From positions 1 to 29,161 of IMG/VR virus record IMGVR_UViG_3300025769_000593: a stretch of DNA of 29,161 bases. The stretch is one strand, 5' to 3'. Positions 9,091 through 29,161 of the stretch are shown here, piece after piece. Position 1 is the stretch's first letter. Every line of letters begins with the position of its first letter. The DNA is from a virus. The notes under the pieces are model-generated. The model saw nothing but the letters and a program-made list of their open reading frames with translations, made no database searches and was not told the origin of the DNA. The translations under genes were made by a program, and so were the position numbers.

Positions 9091-12000
9091 TATCTACGTC
9101 TTTCGTTAGATCAACAAAAGCTAATTTTTCTGTTGCTCTTTTATTTGTAGCTTCATCAGGTGCCGTATGGTGAAGTTTATTATAATAGTCCATAAGCGCA
9201 TCAACACTATCATTCTCAATTATATCTTTTAAATATTTATCTGATCCTTTCTTTTGGAACATGTCGGCTTCAAAAAGTATCTGTTGTTTTAGTGGATCGA
9301 GCTTTGTAGCATCACCGTGTTTAGCCGCATCTTCTGCCCAACTTGGTAGATTATCTTCGCCTACAGTGTTTTTAAGTCTGTTAACGGCCGTCTTTAGTGC
9401 ACCTTTGGTAAACTGGTATAGACCTGCTGCACTTGATGTTGGGTTCTTAGCCATTGGATTGTTGTCGCTTTCTACATCTTTAATATAGTTTCCAGCATTA
9501 ACAATTTTTTTTATTGCACTTGTTTTACCACCTTCAATATTATCAAGGTCAAATCTTTCTAAGTTTGTATCTCTAACTTGTTTTAATAAATTAATATCTT
9601 CTGTAGACATTTCTTTCTCCATTGGTTGTTGTTGTATGTTCTGTGCTCTTTTAGCTTGTTCTAAAAAGTTTAAAGCCCTACGTTCTTCTTCCTTCTCCTC
9701 TTCTTCCATCGGTGGTTGTATTGGCTTAACTACTGGTGGAATTGATGGGTCTGGTCGTCCGACTGATGCAGCTTGATCAACGGCCATCTTTAACATATCG
9801 GTAGCTTGTACTGGTCCTCCTGCTGCTAAATTCTGTTGATCGTTAGTTGCTACGACAACTTTATCTTTATCCATCATCTTTAACAAGTCCATAACAACTT
9901 TTGCTGTTACATTCTCTGTTTCAGATTTTTTCTTTTCATCAAGCTTTGCTGCTTCTACCATTGCATCTATCTTGATCTCTTTTTCTTTAAGCTGTAAATC
10001 TTTTAATTCCAGTTCTTTTTTATTTTCGATTGCTTGTTTTTGAATGTTTAGGTTTTGTTGCTCTATACTATCCAGTCCACCTTGCGCTGCTAACTGGTTA
10101 GCTTTCAATATCTGTTGTGCACTTTCTGCCATGATTGCAGTGAGACTAGCGCCTTGGTCTACTTGACCCTCTTGCGCTTTCATTAGTCCACCCATTTGCT
10201 CTTGGAATCTTAGAACCATATGTTCACGAATGTTTGCTAGTAATACTGGTTCTACTTGTTTCATAATAGGGTTGGCACCATTGAGCGGGTCTTGAACGTA
10301 AGCGGTCTTCACGGCGATGTGAGCATTGTGATCTTGTCCTGGAAATGCTTTGATCGGCTGTCCACGTGTAGCCGACATGATATCGGCAAGAGGATCTTGT
10401 TGGATCGCCTGTTGAGGCGCATTCATGAATCGCTCTGGATTATCGACATTAGCTGCGGCAAGAACCGCTTTGTTTACCTCTGGCATATTGAAAGTTCCCG
10501 GAGGTGACTGCGAAGCCAACTGTAACATCAGTTGTGCTTGCGCTAATCTATGTGAGTTCGATGGGATGTTTGGATCACTAACAGGAAGTACGTCGATACG
10601 GCCATCGAAATCTTGCTTGAATACTTCGGCAGACTGTCCTATAATATCATAAGGATAAGCAGTCGGTAAAAATTCATTGTTTATTCTAGCTAATATTTTA
10701 AACTCGTCTCTTTGAGACTTGTGGAGTCGTTTGTGAATTGCTGAAAAGAACTTACCTGATGCTTCTAATAATGCTAATGTCGTGCCAACCGGACCATAGT
10801 TCGTTGCATCGGACACTACTTGATCTGTCGTGTCAGCAAATTTCTGGCCAGCAGTGGCTACAAAGCCTAACATTTGATAAAGAGTCTGAGACGGTTCTTT
10901 ATACGGAAGAGGAACTATGGACTTGCCCAAATCTAAACCCGTTGACTCAACGTCACGAAACTCCCCCGGCATTATCGGAGAATTATCTCCAACAACTCTA
11001 ACACCTCTAGCTTTAAAACCACCCGGTAAATTAGAGAACTGACCTGCATCAATCAATGCTCTCATTGCAGCTGTAGCTGACATGGTTAGATTACCAAGGA
11101 AATGAATTAATCCTAATCCGTAGAATCCAAAACCTGGTACAAACTTATAACTAACAAAGTGTTCTCTTTTTACAAATCGTGGATCACCATCATTCCAGTT
11201 ACGACGAATACTAAGAACCTTCTTAGAACTTTTATCTATTGTAACAATGTATGGATAGGCTACACCAGTTGGACTGTTGAATGGTTCTGGTAAATCTAAA
11301 TATAAATGTTGTTCAATTAATACATAGCTTGGATCATATGGGTTCTCATCATATGCCGATAGTCCCATGATCTGTTCTGCTTTAGATGTAATGTTACCTC
11401 TATCTGTTTGCTCTGGATCTCCAAGATCAGTTTCTCGATACATACCTGCATCCATATCTTTTCGTAAATCATTTTCAGAACGATAGATAATATGTGAGTA
11501 ACGATCGGCACGACGAAGATCGGATACTAAATTAGATACGTGAAACTGATCGATAGGTATGAACTCTGATATAGGTCGTCCTAATGTTTCATCGTAATAA
11601 ACTTTTTTAACTGCCGTACCAATTAATGGTAGATGAAATAACATCTTCTCAAACTCATCGAAATATTCTGGCATCTCTTCGGTGAGTTGATAGTTCATGA
11701 AATCTTTTACACGTTGCGCTTGTTTTTCTTTCTCTGGTGTAGGTGAACCTACCACTTGAGTTTTAACTGGACCTTTGCTTGGAAATAATTCTTGTGATGC
11801 TTTTGATTGGAACTTAACTGCATTCTCAATAATCAATGGATGTGTTGCTGTACATGCACCATCAAACGGTTCTGTTGTTTCTTCTAGTTTAAGACCAAGT
11901 AAATCAAAGCCTCGTTCAAATGTCTGTTCCCACTCTTCTCGTGAATCTTTATCAGCCGTATAGTTATCCATAACTGTTTGAGCTATGTCTTCTAAATCTT

Positions 12001-12247
12001 CTTCTTCCATTAAATCTGCAAGGTTCATATAGAAGTCTTCACTGATGGAGGCTAATACCTTACCACTATCTTCGTTTAAATCTATTTCAACTTCACCAGT
12101 TGTTGGGTCTACATTAACTGCTAAGTCTTCTTCTTGTTCTTCATCAATGTTTACATCAATACCGAGTGCTTGAGACTGAGCATTAACCTTCTCTTTTGCT
12201 ACTTCAATTGGTGTTGATATATCGTCTGGGTTTTTCTCTATTGCCAT
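9083..12247 (-). CDS. Portal protein with C-terminal lytic-transglycosylase-like domain
   Basis: 1054 residues. About residues 80-640 match the large P22-like portal class of podoviruses: FDGACTATHPLIIENAVKFQ (about 127-146), then SKASQELFP, a central region with PIDQFHVSN and the YKFVPGFGFYGLGL block, and helices of the wing and stem. It forms the twelve-fold ring at the capsid vertex through which DNA passes. Residues ~700-800 are Lys/Glu/Gln-rich coiled coil. The last ~135 residues (about 920-1054) contain VESDNNPMAKNPTSSAAGLYQF, with E926 as a candidate catalytic Glu and the SSAAGLYQFT motif of soluble lytic transglycosylases. Portals are usually 500-750 residues, so this is an extended protein. 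The start lacks a strong ribosome-binding site and is probably coupled to terL, whose stop is three bases away. Confidence 0.85.
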   Translation of the reverse strand: MAIEKNPDDISTPIEVAKEKVNAQSQALGIDVNIDEEQEEDLAVNVDPTTGEVEIDLNEDSGKVLASISEDFYMNLADLMEEEDLEDIAQTVMDNYTADKDSREEWEQTFERGFDLLGLKLEETTEPFDGACTATHPLIIENAVKFQSKASQELFPSKGPVKTQVVGSPTPEKEKQAQRVKDFMNYQLTEEMPEYFDEFEKMLFHLPLIGTAVKKVYYDETLGRPISEFIPIDQFHVSNLVSDLRRADRYSHIIYRSENDLRKDMDAGMYRETDLGDPEQTDRGNITSKAEQIMGLSAYDENPYDPSYVLIEQHLYLDLPEPFNSPTGVAYPYIVTIDKSSKKVLSIRRNWNDGDPRFVKREHFVSYKFVPGFGFYGLGLIHFLGNLTMSATAAMRALIDAGQFSNLPGGFKARGVRVVGDNSPIMPGEFRDVESTGLDLGKSIVPLPYKEPSQTLYQMLGFVATAGQKFADTTDQVVSDATNYGPVGTTLALLEASGKFFSAIHKRLHKSQRDEFKILARINNEFLPTAYPYDIIGQSAEVFKQDFDGRIDVLPVSDPNIPSNSHRLAQAQLMLQLASQSPPGTFNMPEVNKAVLAAANVDNPERFMNAPQQAIQQDPLADIMSATRGQPIKAFPGQDHNAHIAVKTAYVQDPLNGANPIMKQVEPVLLANIREHMVLRFQEQMGGLMKAQEGQVDQGASLTAIMAESAQQILKANQLAAQGGLDSIEQQNLNIQKQAIENKKELELKDLQLKEKEIKIDAMVEAAKLDEKKKSETENVTAKVVMDLLKMMDKDKVVVATNDQQNLAAGGPVQATDMLKMAVDQAASVGRPDPSIPPVVKPIQPPMEEEEKEEERRALNFLEQAKRAQNIQQQPMEKEMSTEDINLLKQVRDTNLERFDLDNIEGGKTSAIKKIVNAGNYIKDVESDNNPMAKNPTSSAAGLYQFTKGALKTAVNRLKNTVGEDNLPSWAEDAAKHGDATKLDPLKQQILFEADMFQKKGSDKYLKDIIENDSVDALMDYYNKLHHTAPDEATNKRATEKLAFVDLTKDVDIA

Positions 12248-16033: not shown

Positions 16034-16426
16034 TTACTTAACTGCCTTTTGAGTCTCTTTAACTAGTGGGGAATATTTCCCAGTATTCAAATCAACTCGA
16101 CATTTTACTCCATCAATTTCCTCAATAACTATATTGGATTTTGGTGAGTTCTGAGTTGGAGTTTTTAGGGGATTTGATTTTATCCACTCTTGTAAACCAC
16201 TCGTAATTTGCTTAAAACTAGCATCGTCCATAGTTCTGATATGAAATAACAACCATCCCATATTTTCAAGACTAGCAACATAAGATCTTTTCATGAAGCC
16301 TTTATACCATAGCCTAGCCATAGGACGTTTAACATTTTCAGTTACTATTGAAAAATTACCGTCAGAAATATCTTTATCTCTATCAGTAAATAATTCATAT
16401 TTTTTTGGGTTTTTTGAAACTTTCAT
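16034..16426 (-). CDS. Isolated minus-strand gene, unknown function
   Basis: 130 residues with a strong AAAGGAG ribosome-binding site before the ATG at 16426. It is mixed alpha/beta and moderately basic. Segments such as RPMARLWYKGFMKRSYVASL (34-53) and WLLFHIRTMDDASFKQITSG are unfamiliar. No helix-turn-helix, zinc or catalytic motif can be seen. It is the only minus-strand gene on the early side and is transcribed away from the operator-rich region at 16427-16979. That is where a phage regulator often sits, but the sequence does not show a DNA-binding fold. It could be an early host-takeover protein or a regulator; undecided. Confidence 0.65.
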   Translation of the reverse strand: MKVSKNPKKYELFTDRDKDISDGNFSIVTENVKRPMARLWYKGFMKRSYVASLENMGWLLFHIRTMDDASFKQITSGLQEWIKSNPLKTPTQNSPKSNIVIEEIDGVKCRVDLNTGKYSPLVKETQKAVK

Positions 16427-16462: not shown

Positions 16463-16479
16463 TTTAGAACCATTCTAAA
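16463..16479. promoter_or_regulatory. Operator-like palindrome TTTAGAA-N3-TTCTAAA, copy 1
   Basis: A perfect 7-bp inverted repeat with spacer CCA, about 37 bases upstream of the ATG of the minus-strand gene. The 17-base symmetric layout suits a dimeric repressor. An overlapping TCTAAACTAGA (16474-16484) is the inverse of the 11-mer repeated at 16656 and 16692. Confidence 0.5.
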
Positions 16480-16696
16480 CTAGAAAGCTAAAATTTCTTT
16501 TAGCATGATACCAATATATCATAGCTATCTGAATAAAGTCTGAATGAGTTGTTCATCTTATATTCATCTTAATATTTGGCTAGTAGTTTAGAATGATTAT
16601 AAGTATCAAACTAACTAAGACTAAGACTAAACTAAATCTAGTATCTGTATTTAAATCTAGTTTAGAGTATCATACGAAGAAGATTCGCTAGTCTAG

Positions 16697-16713
16697 TTTA
16701 GAACTGTTCTAAA
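16697..16713. promoter_or_regulatory. Operator-like palindrome TTTAGAA-N3-TTCTAAA, copy 2
   Basis: The same perfect 7-bp arms as at 16463, spacer CTG. A degenerate third copy (TTTAGAA-TGA-TTATAAG) is at 16587-16603. The same arms with different spacers indicate a sequence-specific site rather than chance AT-richness. Confidence 0.5.
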
Positions 16714-16870
16714 TACATACTAAATACTTAGACTAATCCAGGAATATATACTTAGATTAAGACCTAGAATAGTAATAACTAGAACTAGTTAGCTATAGCT
16801 TTAGTGCATTTTGTTGTTGCAATTGGTCGAAAGTTCGGCTACCATCGGAAAATCGAGGCTTTTTGCCGAT

Positions 16871-16898
16871 TTGTTTCGGTATTTAGTCTAGATATAAT
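16871..16898 (+). promoter_or_regulatory. Putative early promoter
   Basis: A perfect TATAAT (16893-16898) with TTGTTT (16871-16876) 16 bases upstream. The weak -35 and the overlapping TAGTCTAG octamer (16884-16891) suggest regulation. The predicted start (~16905) is three bases before the leader hairpin. Confidence 0.5.
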
Positions 16899-16907
16899 AA
16901 TAACTTA

Positions 16908-16962
16908 TACACTATTCTAGAGCATCTAGATTTCCTTCCCAATTCAGCTCTAGGATAGTGTA
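16908..16962 (+). promoter_or_regulatory. 5' leader hairpin of the early operon, anti-SD loop
   Basis: A 16-bp stem, 16908-16923 with 16947-16962, with a single G-U wobble, closes a 23-base loop. The loop holds TTTCCTT (16931-16937), which can pair over seven bases (one wobble) with AAGGAGA (16969-16975), the ribosome-binding site of the next gene. The stem begins at the predicted 5' end of the message. It may stabilise the RNA or control translation through a loop-to-RBS pseudoknot. Confidence 0.6.
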
Positions 16963-16979
16963 CTAACAAAGGAGATAAT

Positions 16980-17306
16980 ATGTCTATATTAACTAAAGAA
17001 ATACACGATGAAGCTATGGCAGAAGCTAAAAGAGTTTCACTAGAAAAGTACAATGAGTATGGAGACAGACTACCTTGTGGCTTTGCTTGGGTTTCAGTTT
17101 ATGTCAACGGAAACACTAAACTAGGTAAAAGTTTTAAGGCTTTAGGTTTTAAGAAAGACTTTAGTAAGGCTTACGAACTATGGGATCCAAGTGGTCTTCC
17201 AGTACAGAGTGTTGACATTAAGGAAGCTGGTGCTAGAGCCTATGTCAAAGTATTACATAAATACTTACCACATGTCGAAATTTTTGCTAACTCAAGACTA
17301 GATTAA
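16980..17306 (+). CDS. First early gene, conserved small phage protein
   Basis: 108 residues with AAAGGAGA before the ATG, 10 bases past the leader hairpin. The core CGFAWVSVYVNGNTKLGKSF (33-52), then KALGFKKDF, a LWDPSG motif and KEAGARAYVKVL match from memory a short family found in early regions of marine phages. It is soluble and mixed alpha/beta. No catalytic motif is seen. Being first in the operon suggests an immediate-early host-takeover role, which is inference. Confidence 0.7.
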   Translation: MSILTKEIHDEAMAEAKRVSLEKYNEYGDRLPCGFAWVSVYVNGNTKLGKSFKALGFKKDFSKAYELWDPSGLPVQSVDIKEAGARAYVKVLHKYLPHVEIFANSRLD

Positions 17307-17316
17307 GGAGATACTG

Positions 17317-18054
17317 ATGGCGTTAACAACAACAACTAAATCACAAAACAAAAAGATATCAGACTTAAAGAAAAAGATTTGGACTTCTGCTACATATCGT
17401 AGTGGAAGTTCTAATGTCTTTGGGACTTGTCCCTCAAGTTGTAAACTCAATCCATACCCTAATGAGTCTACAACAGAGTTTGATTGGGACTATGCAAACA
17501 CACTAGTCAACTATGGTTGTCCAAAGAATGGTAGTGCTTTTACCTATACACACTTTGAAGACAAGTATGTTGAAGAGTTTGCTAAGACCTGGACTAAGGG
17601 TAAAACAGTTATCAATGTGTCTAGAGATACTCTTGACGATGCTATTGAGTCGTATCGTAAAGGGATACCTACAACAGTGACTACATCGATAGGCTTCATT
17701 GATAAAGTCGGCAGTTACAAAGGTGTAACCTTGTCTAGATGTCCAGCTGAATATCAAGACGAGAGAAACTGTGCTAACTGCAAGCTATGTGCTAACCCAA
17801 ACAGAACATCGATTGTGGTGTTTACTGCACATGGTTCAACTAAGAACAAGGTTGGTAAGACTGAGCAAGGTGGGTGTTATGGTACTAATGGCCCAGTAGC
17901 TTGGGCATGGAAAAAGACCATGAGTAAAGCTAACCTTGATGAAAAACAACAACTAATAAACTGGATCGAAAACGATGTACCTACTGATGGCTTTGTAAGA
18001 CATCATGTCGTTGGAGATTTGGGAAAGGAGATAACTAATGGAACTATTAAATGA
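17317..18054 (+). CDS. Cys-rich protein, Gp88/DUF7227-like
   Basis: 245 residues. It has about nine Cys in spaced groups: FGTCPSSCKLNP (about 35-46), YGCPKNG (about 67-73), and CPAEYQDERNCANCKLCANP (142-161), followed by VVFTAHGSTKNK. The order of a CP..C group, then a central domain with INVSRDTLDDA, then a C..C..C cluster and a conserved ..FTAHG, recalls phage Gp88/DUF7227-type proteins, whose biochemical role is unclear to me. The Cys spacing suggests zinc or an iron-sulfur centre. AAGGAG precedes the ATG. The next gene overlaps by 17 bases. Confidence 0.6.
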   Translation: MALTTTTKSQNKKISDLKKKIWTSATYRSGSSNVFGTCPSSCKLNPYPNESTTEFDWDYANTLVNYGCPKNGSAFTYTHFEDKYVEEFAKTWTKGKTVINVSRDTLDDAIESYRKGIPTTVTTSIGFIDKVGSYKGVTLSRCPAEYQDERNCANCKLCANPNRTSIVVFTAHGSTKNKVGKTEQGGCYGTNGPVAWAWKKTMSKANLDEKQQLINWIENDVPTDGFVRHHVVGDLGKEITNGTIK

Positions 18055-18343
18055 AACTTTTAACGAGGTCTATGTAGACTGTGATAACGATAACGATAGC
18101 TACTATATTAGAGAATATATCCAACTTGATATGTTTAAGGACTACACAATGGCAGTCGTTTTACCTAGAGATGAAGACGATGAATTTTGGTTTAGTGATT
18201 ATTGTGCTACTGTTTTCATAGGTACTAATCGTTACAAGGTAGAAGATATGTTTACGAATGTTCTACAAAATCATCCAACCAATGTTGGTAGGTTTCTATT
18301 AATCGAACAACCTTTACATAAACTATATAACAAGGAGTGGTAA
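18038..18343 (+). CDS. Small acidic protein, unknown
   Basis: 101 residues, acidic in the N-terminal half (CDNDNDSYYI and PRDEDDEFWFSDY). No motif is recognised. AAAGGAGATAACTA precedes the ATG, and the next gene starts on its stop (TAATG). Probably an early accessory protein. DNA-mimic proteins are often acidic and small, but nothing specific supports that here. Confidence 0.6.
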   Translation: MELLNETFNEVYVDCDNDNDSYYIREYIQLDMFKDYTMAVVLPRDEDDEFWFSDYCATVFIGTNRYKVEDMFTNVLQNHPTNVGRFLLIEQPLHKLYNKEW

Positions 18344-18735
18344 TGCAACAAGTAGCAGTATATAGAAATTTACATAAAAACTGTTTGTCTATTCAATCTA
18401 GAGAACGAGAGGACTATGGGAAGATTATTGGTTATTGTAAGTCAATATTTCTTAAACGTCCTAAGTTTGTTGTCAGAGAAAAGGGTAGACTAAAAGTTAT
18501 TAAGGAGAGTAGAAAGAATGTCCATGCTTTTATAGTGGGTGAATGTCCTAACTTAAATATATGGAGTTGGCAAGATATGGATATAACAATGGGTGGTAAC
18601 CCTACGACTAAAGTATTCTACAACCCTTACAAATATTCAACCTTTGTGGATAAGGATGGCAACCCAGTCCATAAAGCAAGAGCCGTTGTGGTTAATACTA
18701 ACTATATACAAGCCGATATTACAAAGGAGAACTAA
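18343..18735 (+). CDS. Conserved phage/bacterial protein (YRNLHK family)
   Basis: 130 residues from the ATG at 18343, which overlaps the preceding TAA and lies five bases after AAGGAG. Recognised pattern: VAVYRNLHKNCLSIQS (4-19), then FVVREKGRLKVIKESRKNVHAFIVGE and YNPYKYSTFVDKDGNPVHKA. This motif set (YRNLHK, GR..V...RKNVHA..VG, YNPYKYS.F) occurs in a widespread uncharacterised family in phages and some bacteria. The conserved His, Lys and Tyr could be functional, but the activity is unknown. Confidence 0.72.
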   Translation: MQQVAVYRNLHKNCLSIQSREREDYGKIIGYCKSIFLKRPKFVVREKGRLKVIKESRKNVHAFIVGECPNLNIWSWQDMDITMGGNPTTKVFYNPYKYSTFVDKDGNPVHKARAVVVNTNYIQADITKEN

Positions 18736-18977
18736 TGGAACTAGAATCATTTAAGATAGCTCATCTATCTAACATATTAAAAATATTCTGCACTAATGAA
18801 AGTCTACCTTACATGAGTGCCGATGACTTGTTACACGACCCAACAATAGCTAAGACACCACTACAAACTAAGTGGTTGCAGTTTTATTGTGAGTGGTGGA
18901 ACGAGTGTACTACTAACCCACAAACACATTTACATCAGAAAGGACAGACATCATGGGTTTTAAACGAGAAGAACTAA
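18735..18977 (+). CDS. Small protein, unknown function
   Basis: 80 residues, start on the upstream stop (TAATG) with AAGGAG. A Leu/Ile-rich helical segment is followed by TKWLQFYCEWWNECTTN, with two Cys and a Trp cluster. The C-terminal 25 bases overlap the next gene. No family is identified with confidence. Confidence 0.6.
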   Translation: MELESFKIAHLSNILKIFCTNESLPYMSADDLLHDPTIAKTPLQTKWLQFYCEWWNECTTNPQTHLHQKGQTSWVLNEKN

Positions 18978-19324
18978 GACAAATTAGAGTCGAGCTTGAG
19001 AAAGCTATAGACAAACATCAACAAGTAAAGGATATAGACAAATATAATTTTACTGTTGGCAACTGTAGTTACAACGACTCTAAAGCTACATTCAAACTTG
19101 AAGTAACTATCAAAGGTGCTAAAAGTGAAGAAAGAGTAGCACTTGAAAAGAGTGCAGACTACTTTGGACTCGACCTTGATAAGGAACATCCAGAGTGGGT
19201 GCTTCTAGGATACAATCGTAAAGCTAGAGGATATCCAATACTAATGGAAAAGAAAAGCAATGGTAAAACTTACAAGTTTGACCTTGAGAATGCTAAGAAA
19301 TTGTTTGGAAAGGAGGTAGCATAA
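18953..19324 (+). CDS. Small mixed alpha/beta protein, unknown
   Basis: 123 residues. An N-terminal helix (EELRQIRVELEKAIDKHQQV) is followed by beta strands (NFTVGNCSYNDSKATFKLEV) and a WVLLGYNRKARGYPILMEKK segment in the C-terminal half. That block recurs in small early phage proteins I have seen, but I cannot name a function. Overlaps the previous gene by 25 bases; AAAGGAC upstream is a weak ribosome-binding site. Confidence 0.6.
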   Translation: MGFKREELRQIRVELEKAIDKHQQVKDIDKYNFTVGNCSYNDSKATFKLEVTIKGAKSEERVALEKSADYFGLDLDKEHPEWVLLGYNRKARGYPILMEKKSNGKTYKFDLENAKKLFGKEVA

Positions 19325-19536
19325 TGGACATTAAATTTGACGATCATATACCAATACCATCTAAGGAATCGTGTTATAAATACAGCTTTCTAGACAAGAT
19401 GAAAATTGGTCAATCTTTTGTAGTTCCTTATACAGTAACTGCAAGACCAACCTATAATCAACAGTTCAAATCTCGTAAGATGAAGATGACTGCTAGAAAA
19501 ATAGATAACAATCTTAGAATATGGAGGATAGCATAA
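19324..19536 (+). CDS. Small conserved phage protein (IPIPSK...M.IGQSF)
   Basis: 70 residues, TAATG junction with the upstream gene and AAAGGAGG before it. IPIPSKESCYKYSFLDKMKI followed by GQSFVVPYTV matches a recurrent small phage pattern (P.PSK...KY.F..M..GDSF.VP....) and the C-terminus R.W. The fold and role are unknown; such proteins are often near replication or modification genes. Confidence 0.62.
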   Translation: MDIKFDDHIPIPSKESCYKYSFLDKMKIGQSFVVPYTVTARPTYNQQFKSRKMKMTARKIDNNLRIWRIA

Positions 19537-19784
19537 TGGAACTACAAACATTAGGCGATAAGGTATCAGATATATTTGATGCCATCGGTCGAATAGAAAT
19601 GAAGTTACAAGACATTGATGACAGAGTAAATGAACTGTACTCTAAGGTCAACGATGGTCAGACAGAGATCAGAGATGAGATTCATGATGTCTATGTAACT
19701 TGTGATGGTATAGATTCCGAAGTGAAAAACATTGAGGGGTACTGTTCATCTATCAACTCGAACATCGACCAACTGAAAGACTGA
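19536..19784 (+). CDS. Coiled-coil small protein
   Basis: 82 residues from the ATG at 19536, which overlaps the previous TAA; GGAGGATAGCATA provides the ribosome-binding site, and the ATG at 19521 precedes that site and is not used. Almost the whole chain is heptad-like (DKVSDIFDAIGRIEMKLQDI), acidic, with two Cys. It is likely oligomeric. It ends just before a promoter (19785), so it closes the first early transcription unit. Confidence 0.65.
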   Translation: MELQTLGDKVSDIFDAIGRIEMKLQDIDDRVNELYSKVNDGQTEIRDEIHDVYVTCDGIDSEVKNIEGYCSSINSNIDQLKD

Positions 19785-19812
19785 TTGACTTTCGCTAGAT
19801 TAATTATATTAT
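19785..19812 (+). promoter_or_regulatory. Second early promoter
   Basis: TTGACT (19785-19790), 16 bases, TATTAT (19807-19812): both boxes are 5/6. It lies right after a stop codon. The predicted start is ~19819, at the inner part of the following hairpin, and the octamer TAGTCTAG (19816-19823) covers it. Confidence 0.55.
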
Positions 19813-19913
19813 AGTTAGTCTAGTGGGGTAGTGATTTTTTAATTTCCTTTGTTACACTATCCCACTAGCCTAACTATAACTCGGTGATAGTTAGGTGGTA
19901 TAACCCACACCGA
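19809..19913 (+). promoter_or_regulatory. Structured leader with alternative pairings before 19929
   Basis: Arm A is 25 bp (19809-19833 with 19855-19879, one mismatch and one wobble) with a 21-base loop that contains TTTCCTTT (19843-19850), complementary over eight bases (one wobble) to AAAGGAGA (19914-19921), the downstream ribosome-binding site. A competing stem B pairs CCTAACTAT (19869-19877) with ATAGTTAGG (19887-19895). Stem C pairs TCGGTG (19881-19886) with CACCGA (19908-19913) and ends at the ribosome-binding site. A and C can coexist; B excludes C and full-length A. Confidence 0.6.
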
Positions 19914-19928
19914 AAAGGAGACGACAAT

Positions 19929-20141
19929 ATGTCACAAGCACAAAAAGATATGTTCAGAGAACAAGAACTGAACGAGATAGGCAAAGCCATTCCTAAGACT
20001 GATGGTGAATGTCTAAGTGAGATCATGCATAATGTTCTTAAAGACAGAAGACTATCCCTCGTTACTGAGGAAGAAGTTGAAGAGATGGTTAGAGAATATC
20101 TAGACTATCAAGCCATGAAACATGGACATTGGGGGACGTAG
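19929..20141 (+). CDS. Small acidic helical protein, unknown
   Basis: 70 residues from the ATG at 19929, after AAAAGGAGACGACAAT; GTG at 19884 would start within the leader and is rejected. Contains SEIMHNVLKDRRLSLVTEEE, then a VEEMVREYLDYQAMKH helix. No motif is recognised. The leader and ribosome-binding site (AAGGAGACGACA) closely resemble those of the primase-helicase gene at 24265. Confidence 0.65.
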   Translation: MSQAQKDMFREQELNEIGKAIPKTDGECLSEIMHNVLKDRRLSLVTEEEVEEMVREYLDYQAMKHGHWGT

Positions 20142-20228
20142 ATGAGACTACTACAAGCATTTGCATTATATATCTTTGTAGTCTTAGTCATCTTTTACTT
20201 TCTACTATGGTTAAACAATTTATTATAA
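20142..20228 (+). CDS. 28-residue single-span membrane microprotein
   Basis: Starts MRLLQAFALY and is then entirely hydrophobic (IFVVLVIFYFLLWL) to NNLL. It begins directly after the preceding stop (TAGATG) with GGGGGA upstream, and is followed after nine bases by the next gene, so it fills the space between neighbours. Likely an inner-membrane protein. Role unknown. Confidence 0.55.
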   Translation: MRLLQAFALYIFVVLVIFYFLLWLNNLL

Positions 20229-20237
20229 GGAGACACT

Positions 20238-20567
20238 ATGCCAATTAGAAAATGGGATAAACTAAATGTTGTAACCCACAACGATATGCATATCATATCA
20301 ATAGGTTCTAGTTACTTGGGTAAACTAAAAGAACCATACGAGAACTTAGTTCGTATGTTGGGTACACCAAGAAATGATAATTCTAAGTGGGTTAGTTGGA
20401 GTTTACAATTCGACTCTGACCCTACATCCGTTGTGACTATTACATCACTAGACAAGAACAAGTCCGATGTATTTGATATGACCAACTGGTCTGTCAGTGG
20501 TCACGATATACTTTACTACGACAAGCTAAATGTTAAACTTCATCAGTTTAGAAAGGAGGCAGTATGA
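20238..20567 (+). CDS. Small protein, unknown function
   Basis: 109 residues with AAGGAG before the ATG. The layout SIGSSYLGKLKEPYENLVRM (about 21-40), then LGTPR, a SLQFDSDPTSVVTITSL strand pair and DMTNWSVSGHD, resembles a family of small phage proteins with a 'sY..L...lG.P' helix followed by beta strands and a W.V.GH motif. No function is known to me. ATGA overlap with the next gene. Confidence 0.6.
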   Translation: MPIRKWDKLNVVTHNDMHIISIGSSYLGKLKEPYENLVRMLGTPRNDNSKWVSWSLQFDSDPTSVVTITSLDKNKSDVFDMTNWSVSGHDILYYDKLNVKLHQFRKEAV

Positions 20568-20893
20568 CAAAAGCTACAAACTTTACACTTGAACAACTAA
20601 ACCAAAAGCAAGAGGAGATACACAATCTCCAAATGCGATTGAAGAAATGTGTCAAAGAAAGAGATGCTCTCAAAGATAAAGCACCACTTAGAATGTATCG
20701 TTACGTTGTAACTGAGACAGTGATAAGTGAACGATGGTTCGAGGCTCACTCTGATGCAGATGCTCAACAAGAGTTAGAGCGAATTAGAAATGATTGTGAG
20801 TTAAACTTAGAGGTGCATGATTCTGAGGTAGTAGATGAAACATTATACTACTGTCCAGAAAGTGGTGAGGGTCACGAGGAGGTGAAAATATGA
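20564..20893 (+). CDS. Coiled-coil N-terminus, small phage protein
   Basis: 109 residues. An N-terminal coiled coil (FTLEQLNQKQEEIHNLQMRL, about 7-45) is followed by a small alpha/beta domain with MYRYVVTETVISERWFEAHS and an acidic C-terminus. The second part looks like a compact strand-helix unit (YRY.V.E......F.A.S...A..E). AAAGGAGG precedes the ATG, and it shares ATGA junctions with both neighbours. Role unknown, possibly associated with the DNA methyltransferase it precedes. Confidence 0.6.
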   Translation: MTKATNFTLEQLNQKQEEIHNLQMRLKKCVKERDALKDKAPLRMYRYVVTETVISERWFEAHSDADAQQELERIRNDCELNLEVHDSEVVDETLYYCPESGEGHEEVKI

Positions 20894-21837
20894 AACATAA
20901 ACTACTAGATTTATTTTCTGGCATCGGTGGGTTCTCTCTTGGTGCAGAGGCTAACGGCATACCAACTGTAGCCTTTGTAGAGAAAGACCCATTCTGTCAG
21001 AAAGTATTACGAAAACATTGGAGTAACACACCAATCATATCTGATATTAGAACAGTGAAAGGAGAAGATTATGAAACAGATGGAGTTACAATTGTCAGTG
21101 GAGGATTCCCATGCCAACCATTCAGTCAAGCTGGAAAAAGAAAAGGCAAAGATGACGACAGATATCTCTGGGATGAAACTCTTAGAGTCGTTGCCGAAAC
21201 AAAACCAGAATGGTTTATTGGAGAAAATGTTGACGGACTTGTTAGCATCCAAGACGGCATGGTACTCAGACAAGTGCAAGATGACTTGGAGAAAGAGGGT
21301 TTCCAAGTCCAATGTCTTGTTATTCCAGCTTCAGGCATCGGTGCTTGGCACCAAAGAAAAAGAGTCTGGATCATTGGACACAATGTATCCAACTCCATCG
21401 GCGAGTTGTCAGATGGACGTAGTAGCACCACCAAACACAGTAAAGCAAAACAAAAGTGGGTGGTCAGTGACGAGGCTAAAAACTGGAACAAAGTTCGGAG
21501 CGAAACTGAACGATGTGGTAAACAAACTACAACACGAGGGGATGTATCCAACTCCAATGGCGAGGGACTACAAGGACATGGGGTTCAAGCCAACATGGAA
21601 GTGGAGGAGGGACAAGTCAGTTCCATCAGTAGCCCTCAAGGACAACGTACATGGTGGCAAACTGAATGCTCAGTTCGTGGAGTTCCTCATGGGATATCCT
21701 ACGAATTGGACAAAGATAGAGCCAATCGAATAAAGGCACTTGGTAATTCCATAGTGCCTCAGATTGCCTATCAATTATTTAAATCAATAGTAACCGTAAC
21801 TAAGGAGGACGACAATGAGCAAGTCTATTGGTGTTAA
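20890..21837 (+). CDS. dcm: DNA (cytosine-5) methyltransferase
   Basis: 315 residues. Motif I DLFSGIGGFSLG (7-18), motif IV GGFPCQPFSQAG with the catalytic C75, motif VI ENV (112-114), motif VIII QRKRVWIIG (155-163) and motifs IX-X RANRIKALGNSIVPQIA (about 279-295) are all in order. It transfers a methyl group from SAM to C5 of cytosine, probably to protect phage DNA from restriction. The target-recognition region between motifs VIII and IX (about 165-270) is short, polar and repeats VSNS-type segments. In the same DNA another frame encodes a protein that also looks conserved (21071-21733). ATGA overlap at the start. Confidence 0.9.
   Translation: MKHKLLDLFSGIGGFSLGAEANGIPTVAFVEKDPFCQKVLRKHWSNTPIISDIRTVKGEDYETDGVTIVSGGFPCQPFSQAGKRKGKDDDRYLWDETLRVVAETKPEWFIGENVDGLVSIQDGMVLRQVQDDLEKEGFQVQCLVIPASGIGAWHQRKRVWIIGHNVSNSIGELSDGRSSTTKHSKAKQKWVVSDEAKNWNKVRSETERCGKQTTTRGDVSNSNGEGLQGHGVQANMEVEEGQVSSISSPQGQRTWWQTECSVRGVPHGISYELDKDRANRIKALGNSIVPQIAYQLFKSIVTVTKEDDNEQVYWC
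21071..21733 (+). CDS. Nested +1-frame ORF inside dcm, conserved-looking
   Basis: 220 codons, fully inside the methyltransferase gene, one frame over, with its own AAAGGAG six bases before the ATG. The product begins MKQMELQLSVEDSHANHSVK and contains WYSDKCKMTWRKRVSKSNVL, FQLQASVLGTKEKESG, two MYPTP motifs (YPTPSA, YPTPMARDYKDMG) and GKLNAQFVEFLMGYPTNWT. From memory these match stand-alone or C-terminal segments of phage cytosine-methyltransferase-like proteins (TWK...FQL..S, PTP.A.D.K, G.LNP.FVEWLMG.P.GWT). It has no methyltransferase catalytic motif. It is either a real overprinted partner gene, or the remnant reading frame of the target-recognition domain in which the main frame shifted twice. 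Open question. Confidence 0.5.
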   Translation: MKQMELQLSVEDSHANHSVKLEKEKAKMTTDISGMKLLESLPKQNQNGLLEKMLTDLLASKTAWYSDKCKMTWRKRVSKSNVLLFQLQASVLGTKEKESGSLDTMYPTPSASCQMDVVAPPNTVKQNKSGWSVTRLKTGTKFGAKLNDVVNKLQHEGMYPTPMARDYKDMGFKPTWKWRRDKSVPSVALKDNVHGGKLNAQFVEFLMGYPTNWTKIEPIE

Positions 21838-22054
21838 AATATATGTAAAATTAGTTGAGGAGAATGAAAAAACATACCTCACATTTGGTACTGAAAAAGA
21901 TGTTTCAGAATGGAAAGAAGAGTTCAGTAAATGGGAAGAAGAAGAAGACTTCTCTGTGGAAAATGACCGCATCGAAGAAATAGGTACAACGGATGACGTT
22001 GAAAAATTACTTACTAATATTAACCAATTAATAGAGGAGCACTATGAGGAGTAA
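21815..22054 (+). CDS. Small acidic protein, unknown
   Basis: 79 residues, strongly acidic (many Glu), with strands near the N-terminus (VKIYVKLVEENEKTYLTFGT) and helices after. AAGGAGGACGACA precedes the ATG, which overlaps the dcm end by 23 bases. Small acidic proteins in this position can be anti-restriction DNA mimics. This is a possibility only. Confidence 0.6.
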   Translation: MSKSIGVKIYVKLVEENEKTYLTFGTEKDVSEWKEEFSKWEEEEDFSVENDRIEEIGTTDDVEKLLTNINQLIEEHYEE

Positions 22055-22220
22055 TGACCCACGATTCATACATTGCGAACAAGCAATGAATGATTGCCGT
22101 CACCAAGCACGAATGTCTAGAGTGAAAGGTGATGACAACAAGGCTATGTGGTATGAGACACAAGCCGACTACTACGAAGAAATGCTACTGCAAGGTAGAG
22201 AATACGAACCATTATTTTAA
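22044..22220 (+). CDS. 58-residue protein, unknown
   Basis: Starts MRSNDPRFIHCEQAMNDCRH at an ATG overlapping the upstream gene by 11 bases, with GAGGAG four bases before it. Helical, with two Cys and an Asp/Tyr-rich C-terminal half (ADYYEEMLLQGREYEPLF). The stop is 10 bases before the next start. The junctions support it. No family is known to me. Confidence 0.6.
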   Translation: MRSNDPRFIHCEQAMNDCRHQARMSRVKGDDNKAMWYETQADYYEEMLLQGREYEPLF

Positions 22221-22230
22221 AGGAGATATA

Positions 22231-22506
22231 ATGTTAAAAGATATTGACGGCTTTGACTACTCAGATGACAAGGACGATGATGATGATGACTCACGAGAGC
22301 GAGAGTATGCTCAAGAAGAAACAGTGAAGTTAATCACTAATCTAGAATCTGAGATTGTTAATAAACAAAATCTGTTTGTTGGTGCTATGACAACCCTCAT
22401 GGATGCTTGTTACTTTCATGCACCACAAGATTCAAGTGCTACACATTTAATATTAACGGCACATCAGAAAGTGCTAGAAGCAAGAAAGAGAGTGAAAGAT
22501 GACTGA
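22231..22506 (+). CDS. Small acidic protein with Asp run
   Basis: 91 residues from the ATG at 22231 (AAAGGAGATATA before it). The N-terminus has a run of Asp (DKDDDDDDSRERE), followed by a helical domain with KLITNLESEIVNKQNLFVGA and a single Cys. The acidic N-terminus is probably disordered. Role unknown. Confidence 0.6.
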   Translation: MLKDIDGFDYSDDKDDDDDDSREREYAQEETVKLITNLESEIVNKQNLFVGAMTTLMDACYFHAPQDSSATHLILTAHQKVLEARKRVKDD

Positions 22507-22657
22507 ACCAAATAACATAGATATCAATCAGTATATTGAATATGATGAGGGTAAGAATATGAGAATCTATTTTAAAAGAACTCAGTTTATTCAAGATGCT
22601 GAAGAGTACTTACGAAATGATAACCCTGATTATGAGATAGTGGGGATTGATGACTAA
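22499..22657 (+). CDS. 52-residue protein, unknown
   Basis: Begins MTEPNNIDINQYIEYDEGKN and ends DYEIVGIDD. The ATG (22499) overlaps the previous stop by eight bases. Mixed alpha/beta with KNMRIYFKRTQFIQDAEEYL. The short length and overlaps at both ends fit the coupled early gene string. No family is known to me. Confidence 0.55.
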   Translation: MTEPNNIDINQYIEYDEGKNMRIYFKRTQFIQDAEEYLRNDNPDYEIVGIDD

Positions 22658-22868
22658 AGAACTCTTTGCTTTATACCTAACTTTTTCTACACCAACTGGT
22701 GTGGAAGAAAGGTTTGTCATGGGTCGAGAGAATTGTGACAACCTAGAACCGATCGTTGAACAAGAGTTTAAACGATTGAATATTAACCGAGATGAATTAC
22801 AGCAATCTGGATACATGTGTATTGGTTGGAAGTTCCATCTTATAAGACAAAGGAATAATCATGATTGA
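22650..22868 (+). CDS. Small protein, possible paralogue of next gene
   Basis: 72 residues from the ATG at 22650 after GTGGGGATTG; TTG three bases upstream is less likely. An N-terminal strand (ELFALYLTFSTPTGVEERF) is followed by CDNLEPIVEQEFKRLNINRD. The pattern of a strand pair then C..EPIV.Q.F resembles the neighbouring 22861 gene (CEPIVSQIYEQY), suggesting an old tandem duplication. Role unknown. Confidence 0.58.
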   Translation: MTKELFALYLTFSTPTGVEERFVMGRENCDNLEPIVEQEFKRLNINRDELQQSGYMCIGWKFHLIRQRNNHD

Positions 22869-23070
22869 ACCAGTGATCATAACCTTTTGGATTGAAGTTA
22901 ACTCTCGGTTATACGAGAAGACTATACCAAAAGTATACAATGAGTGTGAACCTATCGTCTCTCAAATCTATGAGCAGTACGAAAAGTCTAACGGCAAAAT
23001 CGTTGCAGTAAAGTGTGACACATATCAACAATACAAAGAGAAAAGGAGTTACTTCAATGGCAAAAGGTAA
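22861..23070 (+). CDS. Small protein, unknown
   Basis: 69 residues with AGGAATAATC before the ATG; overlaps the previous gene by eight bases. A strand segment (PVIITFWIEVNSRLYEKTI) and a helix with YNECEPIVSQIYEQYEKS give the same plan as the gene before it. The next gene starts 14 bases inside it. Confidence 0.58.
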   Translation: MIEPVIITFWIEVNSRLYEKTIPKVYNECEPIVSQIYEQYEKSNGKIVAVKCDTYQQYKEKRSYFNGKR

Positions 23071-23263
23071 TGGAACAGCAATAAACGATGACGAGATTCT
23101 TTCTGATGTAGAGATAGTCTATGCATTAGCTAAGATAAAACACTTCAAAGATATAGTACAAACAGTATCAATTAAAAGATATTCTCAAGAAGAATATGTT
23201 GATGTTGTCGAAGCTATCTTTGAGGATATATTTAACCCACGAACTGACAAGGAGAAACAATAA
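23057..23263 (+). CDS. Small acidic protein, unknown
   Basis: 68 residues from the ATG at 23057, after AAAAGGAGTTACTTCA (an ATG at 23015 has no ribosome-binding site). Helical, with DDEILSDVEIVYALAKIKHF then EEYVDVVEAIFEDIFN. No motif. The TAATG junction with the next gene supports coupling. Confidence 0.6.
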   Translation: MAKGNGTAINDDEILSDVEIVYALAKIKHFKDIVQTVSIKRYSQEEYVDVVEAIFEDIFNPRTDKEKQ

Positions 23264-23499
23264 TGGGAGATAAACAAATTAAAGTACAAGATATTATTGA
23301 GTTATTGGAAGAGCCTATAGACTTAATTAAAACAATGACTACTGACCCAACAGAAATAGAGAGTATTATAAATGTTGCTTTATATGAGTATCTCTATCCA
23401 CCAAAGAAATCGATAAGGGATAGGATAATGACAACTGTTGACGATCGTCCGTGTGATACTGAAGCACCAGATAATGTGGTGAGGGTTAACTTCAAATGA
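23263..23499 (+). CDS. Small protein, unknown
   Basis: 78 residues starting on the previous stop (TAATG), AAGGAG before it. A helical first half (VQDIIELLEEPIDLIKTMTT) and an extended C-terminal part with VDDRPCDTEAPDNVVRVNFK. ATGA overlap with the HNH gene. Nothing diagnostic is seen. Confidence 0.6.
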   Translation: MGDKQIKVQDIIELLEEPIDLIKTMTTDPTEIESIINVALYEYLYPPKKSIRDRIMTTVDDRPCDTEAPDNVVRVNFK

Positions 23500-23990
23500 C
23501 TAGCTGCAAAAGAGTGGGGTGTGATAATGAGATCACATCCTCACGGAATGTGTATTGTTCGATATCTTGTAGTGCTATAGTTAATAACACTAAATTTCCT
23601 AAACGGATCAAGAAAGATCCAGGTGTTTTCCGTTGCAATTATTGTAACAAAGAACAACCAAGACGGAACAATACAATGAATAAGTATTGTGATAATGTCT
23701 GCCAACAGAACCATCGCAAACAGATTCGCAATGAAAAAATAGAACGAGATGAACACATGGGTAAGTCTATTGGTAAGAAGAGACTGATCATTGCTTATCT
23801 CAAGGATACTAACCAATGGTATTGTCACCAATGTAAGATAGGCGAAGAAGATGCGCCGATGGAGTTTCATCATATCGATGGGAATCGCTATCACAATCGT
23901 CTGTCAAACTCGATGGTGCTCTGCCGCAATTGTCATGGGAGGACACATAACTTCAAAGGTAGAAACAAAGGGTGTGGCCACTATATATAG
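23496..23990 (+). CDS. HNH endonuclease with zinc-finger N-terminus
   Basis: 164 residues. The N-terminal part has two Cys-rich segments (C..VGCDNE...YCSISC, about 4-25, and FRCNYCNKE...KYCDNVC, about 46-69), likely zinc fingers for DNA binding. The C-terminal HNH domain has WYCHQCKIGEEDAPMEFHH (about 117-135), with HHIDGNRYHNRLSNSMVLC and RNCHGRTH providing the His-Asn-His metal core and two CxxC structural zinc pairs. It may be a homing endonuclease or an early nuclease attacking host DNA. The repeat array and replication genes follow, so origin-linked homing is possible. ATGA overlap with upstream gene. Confidence 0.85.
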   Translation: MTSCKRVGCDNEITSSRNVYCSISCSAIVNNTKFPKRIKKDPGVFRCNYCNKEQPRRNNTMNKYCDNVCQQNHRKQIRNEKIERDEHMGKSIGKKRLIIAYLKDTNQWYCHQCKIGEEDAPMEFHHIDGNRYHNRLSNSMVLCRNCHGRTHNFKGRNKGCGHYI

Positions 23991-24110
23991 TTATATATAG
24001 TTAATTAGAGATATATATAGTTAACTAGAGATATATATAGTTAATTAGAGACATATATAGTTATAAAGAGATATATATAGCTATATACTGACATATATAG
24101 AACTAGCATT
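23981..24110. repeat. 20-bp AT-rich tandem repeat array, origin-like
   Basis: Six to seven units of about 20 bp in the form ATATATATAGTTAATTAGAG (24011-24030, 24031-24050 and so on), each with a TATATAG core; outer units diverge. The region is nearly pure A/T apart from G in TAG and GAG. It directly follows the HNH gene and precedes the primase-helicase gene, where an easily melted origin or iteron array would be expected. Confidence 0.7.
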
Positions 24111-24138
24111 AGACTAACACTAGACTACTATTAGACTA
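24109..24138. repeat. Three YTAGACTA octamers at 11-bp spacing
   Basis: TTAGACTA at 24109-24116, CTAGACTA at 24120-24127 and TTAGACTA at 24131-24138, exactly 11 bases apart, that is about one helical turn. Such phasing is typical of protein-binding iterons or operators. The same octamer or its complement occurs at 16684-16735, 16884-16891 and 19816-19823. Confidence 0.6.
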
Positions 24139-24177
24139 TATATAGTCCCCCTCTGTATATGGGGATAGGCTATCATT

Positions 24178-24189
24178 GATTTCGAAATC
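24178..24189. promoter_or_regulatory. 12-bp palindrome GATTTCGAAATC
   Basis: A perfect 12-bp palindrome 10 bases upstream of the -35 box at 24200. It could be an operator for the replication promoter. It is short enough that chance cannot be excluded. Confidence 0.35.
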
Positions 24190-24199
24190 TGACAACCCC

Positions 24200-24228
24200 T
24201 TGACAAAAATAAATAGAGGATGTATTTA
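24200..24228 (+). promoter_or_regulatory. Putative promoter of the replication operon
   Basis: A perfect TTGACA (24200-24205), 17 bases, TATTTA (24223-24228, 3/6). The predicted start is near 24235. The leader is ~30 bases with AAGGAGACGACAT before the ATG at 24265. The weak -10 suggests regulation. Confidence 0.5.
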
Positions 24229-24264
24229 TAGGGCAAGACCCGCAAAAATATAAGGAGACGACAT

Positions 24265-25956
24265 ATGACAATAAACAATGACCCAAAAAGGTTTATACGA
24301 CACACACCTTGTGAAGAGTGTGGATCATCCGATGCCAATGCTTTGTATGCTGACGGCAGTCGCTATTGTTTCTCGTGCCGAACCTACACTGAACCTCCCA
24401 AGGACAAGACCCGACTTGAGGAACTGCTCGGAGATGACACAAAAATTCAAGGCTCGGCGCCAAAGATTATACCACTCGGTATTAGTAAACCTATTACTGA
24501 AAGAAAGATAAGTCGTGAGACTTGTGAGTTCTTTGGTGTGACTACAACTAATAGTGATAAACCAGAAGTATATAAACACCACTACCCATACTATGATGAT
24601 GAGGGTAATCACGTAGCTACTAAGGTCAGAAGAGTAGTTGATAAGTCATTCAGTGTAGAGGGTAAGACTGGTAAAGCTTTATTGTTCGGTCAACAACTAT
24701 TTAGTTCTAACAATTCTAAAATTATAACTATCTGTGAGGGTGAGATAGATGCTTTGTCGGTCTATGAAATGATGCTACCTAAATCTTACCCAGTTGTTAG
24801 TGTTAGAACTGGAGCAGCTGGAGCCATTACCGATTGTAAGAAACAGTATGAATATATAAATAGTTTTGAAAAGATATACTTATGTTTTGATAATGACGAA
24901 CCAGGTCGTGAGGCTAGTAAAAAGGTAGCCGAACTATTTCCACCAAAGAAAGTACACATAGTAAATTTAGGTTTAAAAGATCCAAATGATTATCTAGTGC
25001 AGAATAAGAAGCATGATTTCATGACTAGATTCTATGCTGCGCAAACATATACACCAGAGGGTATTATACTTGGTGAGAATACTTGGGATCTTATAGCTAA
25101 TGAAAAGGTAATAGAATCAATACCTTATCCGTGGGAGGGTATGAATACTATGACTTATGGTATGAGACTTGGTGAGTTATGTACGTATACTGCGGGGTCA
25201 GGTATAGGTAAGTCTAGTGTAATGAGAGAACTAGCTTATCATATAATAAAGAACAGTAATCATTCAGTTGGTTGTTTGTTTCTAGAAGAATCTATTGAAC
25301 GAACAACCAAAGGTATTATGTCTGTACATGCCAACAAACCACTGCACCTACCATTTTGTGAATCAACTATGGAAGAGAAACGTGCAGCATGGGAGGCTAC
25401 CCTTGGTACAAACAAAGTAAGAATGTGGGACCACTTTGGTTCTACTGATATCGATAATATTATATCTAAAGTACAATACCTAGCTAGTGGATTAGATTGT
25501 AAGTTTATTATACTCGATCACTTAACTATGATTGTATCGGCAATGACTGGTGACAATGAGAGAAGAGCCATCGATAGTATAATGACAAGGCTCAGAACTC
25601 TAGTCCAAGAACAGAACATACATCTGATGTTGGTATCTCATTTAAGTAGGCGAGCTAGTTCAGATAGTGGACACGAAGAAGGTGCGATAGTTAGTCTGTC
25701 ACAGCTCAGAGGTTCACACGGTATTGCACAACTCTCTGACTTTTGTTTCTCGTTGGAAAGAAACGGACAAGCAGAAGATATGGAGAAGAGAAACCAAACT
25801 ACAGTTCGTATATTGAAGAACAGATTTAGTGGAGAGACTGGTCCATGTTGTTGGTTACAATGGCATAAAGATACTGGTCGCTTGACTGAAATACCTAATC
25901 CAAAATCTAAAGACAACGATGACTTCAAGGAGGTGAATGATGGATTCAAAGTTTGA
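24265..25956 (+). CDS. T7-type primase-helicase
   Basis: 563 residues. N-terminal zinc ribbon with C16, C19, C35 and C38 (CEECG and YCFSC) reads the primer site. A Toprim core follows: E158 (ICEGEIDALS, 157-165) and DND (209-211), which bind catalytic metal for RNA primer synthesis. The C-terminal RecA-like helicase has Walker A AGSGIGKSS (310-318), VGCLFLEES (339-347), then FIILDHLTMIVSA, LMLVSHLSRR and QLRGSHGI. It unwinds DNA as a hexamer and primes lagging strands, like T7 gp4. AAGGAGACGACAT precedes the ATG. The next gene overlaps by 20 bases, coupling helicase with polymerase. Confidence 0.93.
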   Translation: MTINNDPKRFIRHTPCEECGSSDANALYADGSRYCFSCRTYTEPPKDKTRLEELLGDDTKIQGSAPKIIPLGISKPITERKISRETCEFFGVTTTNSDKPEVYKHHYPYYDDEGNHVATKVRRVVDKSFSVEGKTGKALLFGQQLFSSNNSKIITICEGEIDALSVYEMMLPKSYPVVSVRTGAAGAITDCKKQYEYINSFEKIYLCFDNDEPGREASKKVAELFPPKKVHIVNLGLKDPNDYLVQNKKHDFMTRFYAAQTYTPEGIILGENTWDLIANEKVIESIPYPWEGMNTMTYGMRLGELCTYTAGSGIGKSSVMRELAYHIIKNSNHSVGCLFLEESIERTTKGIMSVHANKPLHLPFCESTMEEKRAAWEATLGTNKVRMWDHFGSTDIDNIISKVQYLASGLDCKFIILDHLTMIVSAMTGDNERRAIDSIMTRLRTLVQEQNIHLMLVSHLSRRASSDSGHEEGAIVSLSQLRGSHGIAQLSDFCFSLERNGQAEDMEKRNQTTVRILKNRFSGETGPCCWLQWHKDTGRLTEIPNPKSKDNDDFKEVNDGFKV

Positions 25957-27637: not shown

Positions 27638-27640
27638 CTG

Positions 27641-27693
27641 TTGACACCATTGATAGTATGGTATACTGTCGAGGTGTTTCTTTATTGAGACAC
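27641..27693 (+). promoter_or_regulatory. Promoter and 5' hairpin of the ssDNA-binding-protein gene
   Basis: TTGACA (27641-27646) and TATACT (27662-27667), 15 bases apart with a TGG extended -10. The predicted start, 27674, coincides with the first base of a 7-bp hairpin GTGTTTC-TTTATT-GAGACAC (27674-27693, one wobble). A ~45-base A/T-rich leader leads to AAGGAG and the ATG at 27739. A promoter here would boost SSB, which is needed in bulk. Confidence 0.55.
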
Positions 27694-27738
27694 TAACTTT
27701 TAATAACTTTTATAAACTTTTAATTTAAGGAGATAAAT

Positions 27739-29099: not shown

Positions 29100-29161
29100 G
29101 TGTATTAAGAAAAGAAAAAGGATTTTATAGATCCATCTTTGAAGCTACAGTCTGCGCTAAG
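29096..29161 (+). CDS. Partial gene, 5' end only, unknown
   Basis: Starts with an ATG overlapping the upstream TGA (ATGA) and runs off the window after 22 codons (MSVLRKEKGFYRSIFEATVC then AK). Too short to assign. The position in the replication operon suggests a nuclease or nucleotide enzyme, but nothing in the sequence shows it. Confidence 0.5.
   Translation, partial: MSVLRKEKGFYRSIFEATVCAK

Follow-up and report, generated by a model that had tools for sequence, protein, structure and literature searches.

A conserved hairpin with a pyrimidine-rich loop at the head of a predicted early operon in uncultured aquatic phages, a candidate 5'-end protective leader

The gene 32 leader of phage T4 contains an H-type pseudoknot, and in the early mRNA of phage T7 cutting by RNase III gives new protected 5' ends. 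In the ompA and papA leaders of E. coli, a long stable stem is found at or near the start, with an open Shine-Dalgarno (SD) sequence behind it. Stabilization by 5' structure is explained by the requirement of both RppH and RNase E for a single-stranded 5' end (PMC3997798). A different kind of leader is represented by the putRNA of phage HK022, by which RNA polymerase reads through terminators with no protein factor involved; it is about 70 nt long and composed of two stem-loops (PMC9378689), while RNAIII and RsaA of S. aureus present C-rich loops with a UCCC seed (PMC3961350).

The window analyzed here, i.e., the 29,161-base virus record IMGVR_UViG_3300025769_000593 (positions 1 to 29,161) of a marine phage, holds two elements, E1 and E2 (Table 1), that share features with several of these systems. 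As in the ompA and papA leaders, a long stable stem is predicted at or near the start of E1, with an open SD behind it; different from those leaders, E1 has a predicted start and a conserved loop motif, and the cassette stands before many genes and twice per phage genome. Like HK022 putL and putR, E1 is an early phage leader RNA just 3' of an early promoter, the early class resting on gene content, and host polymerase is probably used; however, it consists of one hairpin only, with 16 bp in the stem and 23 nt in the loop. RNAIII and RsaA likewise expose an unpaired U/C-rich hairpin-loop stretch complementary to SD sequences, but they are trans-acting regulatory RNAs, whereas E1 lies in an mRNA leader. 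The likeness of E2 to the T4 gene 32 leader, one of layout, consists in an H-type pseudoknot just upstream of the SD, to which E2 adds a 5' hairpin and an alternative partner strand in read-through RNA.

Table 1. Coordinates of the E1 and E2 features and of the first early gene in the window
Feature	Position	Strand	Description
P1 promoter, sigma70-like TTGCAA-N17-TACCAT	16817-16845	+	upstream candidate start of the early operon; consensus match only
P2, -10-like TATAAT	16893-16898	+	9 nt before the stem; no -35
E1 stem, 5' arm	16908-16923	+	TACACTATTCTAGAGC
E1 loop	16924-16946	+	23 nt, ATCTAGATTTCCTTCCCAATTCA; conserved core ATTTCCTTCCC at 16930-16940
E1 stem, 3' arm	16947-16962	+	GCTCTAGGATAGTGTA
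Shine-Dalgarno AAAGGAGAT of the first early gene	16968-16976	+	complementary to the E1 loop
First early gene in the window phage	16980-17306	+	108 aa, PHROG 22149, unknown function; other genes in its place in relatives
E2 promoter TTGACT-N16-TATTAT	19785-19812	+	conserved in relatives (TTGACT-N16/17-TATNAT)
E2 hairpin	19820-19868	+	arms 19820-19833/19855-19868, 14 pairs, one G-U
E2 loop	19834-19854	+	contains AATTTCCTTTG
E2 H-type pseudoknot	19869-19913	+	H2 19869-19877/19887-19895; H3 19881-19886/19908-19913
E2 Shine-Dalgarno and ATG of the 70-aa gene	19915-19931	+	ATG at 19929

In the window, the late genes (portal, terminase, and others) lie mostly on the minus strand and the early and replication genes on the plus strand. 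E1 is intergenic: on one side lies a minus-strand gene (16034-16426), on the other the plus-strand operon of about 12 kb that starts at 16980, which we infer from its gene content to be of the early class. The first gene of this operon has only distant relatives, in CRP-9, CRP-13, HTVC026P, and Seuss. No T7-type RNA polymerase was detected, in a search whose controls were not detected either and which is thus uninformative. The same divergent intergenic region contains two copies of the 17-base palindrome TTTAGAANNNTTCTAAA (16463-16479 and 16697-16713), which has similar copies upstream in L005, L011, L030, and L034 and looks like a repressor or activator site. It also contains AGTATCATACGAAGAAGA (16666-16683), near-identical in L003, L004, L005, L011, L030, L034, L187, and L198, in intergenic regions that have otherwise diverged among those eight contigs.

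The preliminary description had reported a 16-bp stem and a 23-base loop containing TTTCCTT, and all three were found where it placed them, with one of the 16 pairs being U-G; TTTCCTT lies at 16931-16937, its potential partner AAGGAGA at 16969-16975, and the ATG at 16980. The predicted folding energy of E1 RNA is -23.6 kcal/mol, compared with a mean of -12.5 for dinucleotide shuffles (z = -4.05), none of 200 shuffles being as good. Furthermore, a stem-scoring scan of the plus strand gave E1 (36.8) and the E2 segment 19809-19879 (49.8) as the two top hairpins of the window, and both scores exceed the best hairpin in each of 60 dinucleotide shuffles of the whole window (maximum, 32.4). The E1 hairpin is thus real, with a stem stability beyond chance. 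It was rejected as an intrinsic terminator, for which a short-loop, G+C-rich stem and a U tract are expected, since the loop has 23 nt and the stem is followed by CTAACAAAGG.

A loop-blind search, with fixed arms and 18 to 40 free nucleotides between them, retrieved 25 viral contigs with E1, whose loops are all pyrimidine-rich and usually of the form AUUUCCUUCCC, with the core ATTTCCTTCCC. The same pattern run against 257 Gb of prokaryote contigs gave one match, with an unrelated loop. The loop core is near-invariant, the variants being ATTTTCTTCCC (L003 and L021), ATTTCCTCCCC (L014), and ATTTCCTTCTTT (L030, L034, and L198), while the flanking loop bases are variable. In 20 distinct leaders, 99.7% of the stem cells are paired; eight of the stem pairs never vary, five vary on one side, and three change on both sides, and the pairing values exceed those of slid controls and of nearly all shuffles. 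Conservation of the stem is solidly supported by this alignment, which consists of close relatives. With a covariance model (R1), additional E1 copies were detected 5' of the primase gene, along with a diverged one in L198, and each of four whole records has one strong copy, at the start of the early operon. Thus, to the question raised in the preliminary description of whether relatives keep the stem and the loop, the answer is that they keep both, and the loss of the two that it named as speaking against the element did not occur. Rumen contig L253 has a different inverted repeat, which is not E1. Matches to a 14-base pattern were mostly due to chance and were considered only at loci having the hairpin, and 11 loci (L149 to L159) with a loop-like sequence and no stem were discarded.

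Among described sequences, the leader region has no nucleotide match in the cultured phage records searched, the E1 covariance model found no copy in CRP-9 or CRP-13, and in the parts of HTVC103P, HTVC115P, HTVC023P, HTVC027P, and 023Pt_psg01 scanned for equivalent hairpins none has the E1 loop. No Rfam covariance model came near its gathering score; the matches obtained were weak ones to generic hairpins, falling far short of the curators' scores. With no Rfam family matching, E1 is a conserved RNA element of uncultured aquatic phages that has apparently been undescribed so far.

Hairpins of 18 to 19 bp occur in early-region intergenic gaps of the roseophages CRP-13 (L036:3452-3508) and CRP-9 (L037:5188-5257), the former behind a TTGACA; their loops differ, and their layout is E2-like. 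In four contigs (L108:354-420, L030, L034, and L035), an extra hairpin (CTAGG-GTTGT-GATATGA...TCATATC-ACGAC-CCTAG) stands between P2 and E1. It carries a duplicated E1 5' arm, so that the single 3' arm has two possible, competing 5' partners, and the insert is near-identical across the four contigs although the flanking hairpins differ.

As for the start of the transcript, it had been predicted to lie within three bases of the stem, from P2. The P2 -10 element is conserved; in relatives it reads [TA]ATNAT and is followed by a near-invariant A(A/G)TAA(C/T)TTATACAC; however, no -35 is recognizable 15 to 19 nt from P2 in the window or in any relative lineage, and a better -35/-10 candidate, P1, is conserved upstream. 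In most lineages P1 keeps the same 17-nt spacer and a TANNNT -10, with variants such as TTGACT-N17-TAAGCT (L014) and TTGTCG-N17-TATAAT (L030). A start at P2 would make E1 5'-terminal, whereas a start at P1 would place it about 56 nt inside the RNA; both may be used.

In E2, the hairpin arms, CTAGTGGGGTAGTG and CACTATCCCACTAG, follow the promoter directly, and the stem begins 7 to 8 nt after the -10, at the position of a predicted start site. Across nine distinct sequences the 14 bp of this stem never vary, G-U pair included, which suggests sequence recognition and not structure alone. The loops, among them ATTTCCTTTG, ATATCCTTTG, TGTCCTTTG, and GTTTCCTAT, contain UCCU. In the pseudoknot downstream, H2 is paired in each of the nine, L014 having two compensatory changes, and H3 reads TCGGTG/CACCGA in the window versus GTTGGC/GCCAAC in others, five of its six pairs having changed on both sides. 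Moreover, the 5' strand of H2 can alternatively pair with an upstream copy of its partner in the -10/start region, which is transcribed only in read-through RNA, and the folding program gives two forms for the two RNAs; going by these modelled folds, the alternative pairing may be used. It is possible to hypothesize that E1 and E2 form a two-part leader-RNA system reading out the origin of transcription, in which CCTAACTAT of E2 would pair either with the upstream ATAGTTAG, present only in RNA that reads through from the first promoter, or with the downstream ATAGTTAGG, closing the pseudoknot by the SD in RNA started at E2. The 70-aa gene would then be translated differently according to the origin of the message, and the YUUCCUU shared by the loops would tie this to SD occupancy. 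We regard this system as improbable, but the alternative partners for one strand make promoter-dependent folding of the leader directly testable.

The genes that follow E1 show about a dozen different N termini (MSILTKEI, MAKPYTTQ, MGTVIKST, MHKEEYII, MTNLIMVR, MRNCTKCN, MNEINNMP, MVSTSFTF, MTKEIIFK, MTSVTGYE, and MPTVNLQK among them), as compared by eye and not by homology search. The intergenic sequence upstream diverges too, the constant parts being P1, a ATAATAACTTATACAC stretch, the hairpin, and AACAAAGGAGA. Because the following gene differs between relatives, E1 is an operon-level cassette, serving the operon and not one gene. In the L187 record, where E1 gives no strong match, the early operon starts with a promoter-like TTGTGA-N16-CATTAT and, set directly against it, a different hairpin (TAGGAGAGAGTG/CACTTTCTCTTA) whose loop, AAAAATTTTTACAAG, is without the motif. 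That L187 keeps a hairpin at the start, but neither its sequence nor its loop, favors a structural role, as far as a single case read by eye may indicate.

That an RNA structure heads the early operon is well supported. Regarding its role, we tentatively propose, with somewhat less than even confidence, that E1 (16893-16976) may be a cis-acting leader cassette, namely a 5'-end protective hairpin with a conserved loop; of the three readings first offered (translation switch, RNA stabilizer, or site bound by 16S rRNA-mimicking factors), the stabilizer fits best. A long hairpin located close to the 5' end of this mRNA, or directly at it, would bury that end in double strand, which should hinder RppH and 5'-end-dependent RNase E and could keep the long early mRNA alive irrespective of its first gene, while the A-rich linker and the SD would remain open to ribosomes. 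E2 (19785-19931) would repeat the design, with a two-hexamer promoter set directly against a hairpin. We infer the start sites and the protective effect from sequence, and a protective leader seems most likely because the start position, the stem strength, and the independence from the first gene suit such a leader and because of the single-stranded 5' end that RppH and RNase E require. Few unpaired nucleotides would separate start and stem with P2 and with the E2 promoter, but P2 is without a -35 and has P1 upstream, and a start at P1 would leave E1 internal and not 5'-terminal. It also speaks against simple protection that it needs no particular loop sequence, yet the E1 loop core is conserved, and that the E2 stem is invariant down to its sequence. 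Protective leaders working alike are known; what appears new is that a structured leader RNA of a phage has a conserved loop and occurs twice in the early operon. Should it protect or time early phage mRNA, it would provide a portable 5' stabilizer and help to locate early promoters in phage contigs.

The conserved loop leads to the alternatives. A translation switch, in which the loop of E1 (and of E2) pairs with its own SD and the resulting pseudoknot keeps translation low until opened by ribosomes or a factor, had been suggested from a seven-base pairing. The pairs are present, one of them being a U-G wobble, and an eighth, A-U, can be added (8 bp, -8.4 kcal/mol); the spacing of 31 bases given from loop to SD holds from the TTTCCTT motif, whereas from the loop end it is 22. 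A match of 5 to 8 bp persists in most relatives at both elements (-4 to -12 kcal/mol), and the two loops of the window share the 8-letter word AUUUCCUU, a length equaled in 284 of 20,000 shuffled loop pairs. However, composition-preserving shuffles of the loops pair nearly as well (p = 0.02 to 0.8; 0.06 for E1 and 0.09 for E2 in the window), the SD is nearly constant among relatives, leaving nothing to co-vary with the loop, and the loop changes UUUUCUUCCC (L003 and L021) and UUUCCUCCCC (L014) are uncompensated in it. In addition, the 6-nt linker (16963-16968) would have to span all 16 bp of the stem, and the CCC conserved in the loop stays unpaired with the SD, so that we consider a switch rather unlikely. 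Since pairing with the SD would not require all of the conserved core, as the CCC indicates, the loop probably has another or an additional partner, the likeliest for YUUCCUU being purine-rich: an SD in cis or in trans, or a host protein. Binding of UUUCCUUCCC to the SDs of other messages or to a host or phage protein would account for the CCC, which cis pairing leaves unexplained, and UUCCC, unpaired in most E1 loops, resembles the UCCC seed of RNAIII and RsaA (PMC3961350); nevertheless, the E2 loops are without CCC, the element belongs to an mRNA leader, and nothing points to a separate small RNA, so that this reading is quite improbable.

Processive antitermination, put-like or other, in which the nascent hairpin would bind RNA polymerase and allow it to read through the long operon, is unlikely. 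The element follows early promoters closely where the operon begins, its -10-like element without a -35 could be a sigma pause site, as proposed for putL (PMC9378689), and terminator-like sites at 16800-29161 number 13 versus 5.5 in shuffles (both strands); against this, E1 has one hairpin and not the two stem-loops of put, E2 has a mid-operon position, no internal terminator is convincing, and there is no Rfam match. It is doubtful, too, that the stem, up to 22 to 25 bp at E2 in read-through RNA, is a processing site where RNase III would create new protected 5' ends: the E2 inverted repeat extends through the -10 (19809-19879, 25 positions as DNA with one mismatch) and one of its outer pairs changes on both sides in L014, but the 16 bp of E1 are short for RNase III. 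Least probable is a DNA-level inverted repeat, operator or replication site. The E2 arms are indeed sequence-invariant and overlap the -10, and ACACTAT/ATAGTGT-like words are common to the arms of E1 and E2; still, the stem changes to U-G pairs suit an RNA and not a DNA palindrome, spacers of 21 to 23 nt are long for an operator, and the conserved loop stands beside the SD on one strand only.

Elsewhere in the window, an AT-rich repeat array of the GAGATATATATAGTTA type (23980-24110) lies just 5' of the primase gene and is followed by a TTGACA at 24200; a replication origin and a third early promoter, without a loop hairpin, are possible there. Finally, the C-terminal stretch (ESDNNPMAKNPTSSAAGLYQFT) of the 1054-aa portal-like protein encoded on the minus strand (9083-12247) reads like a transglycosylase domain, and the protein is possibly a portal-lysozyme fusion.
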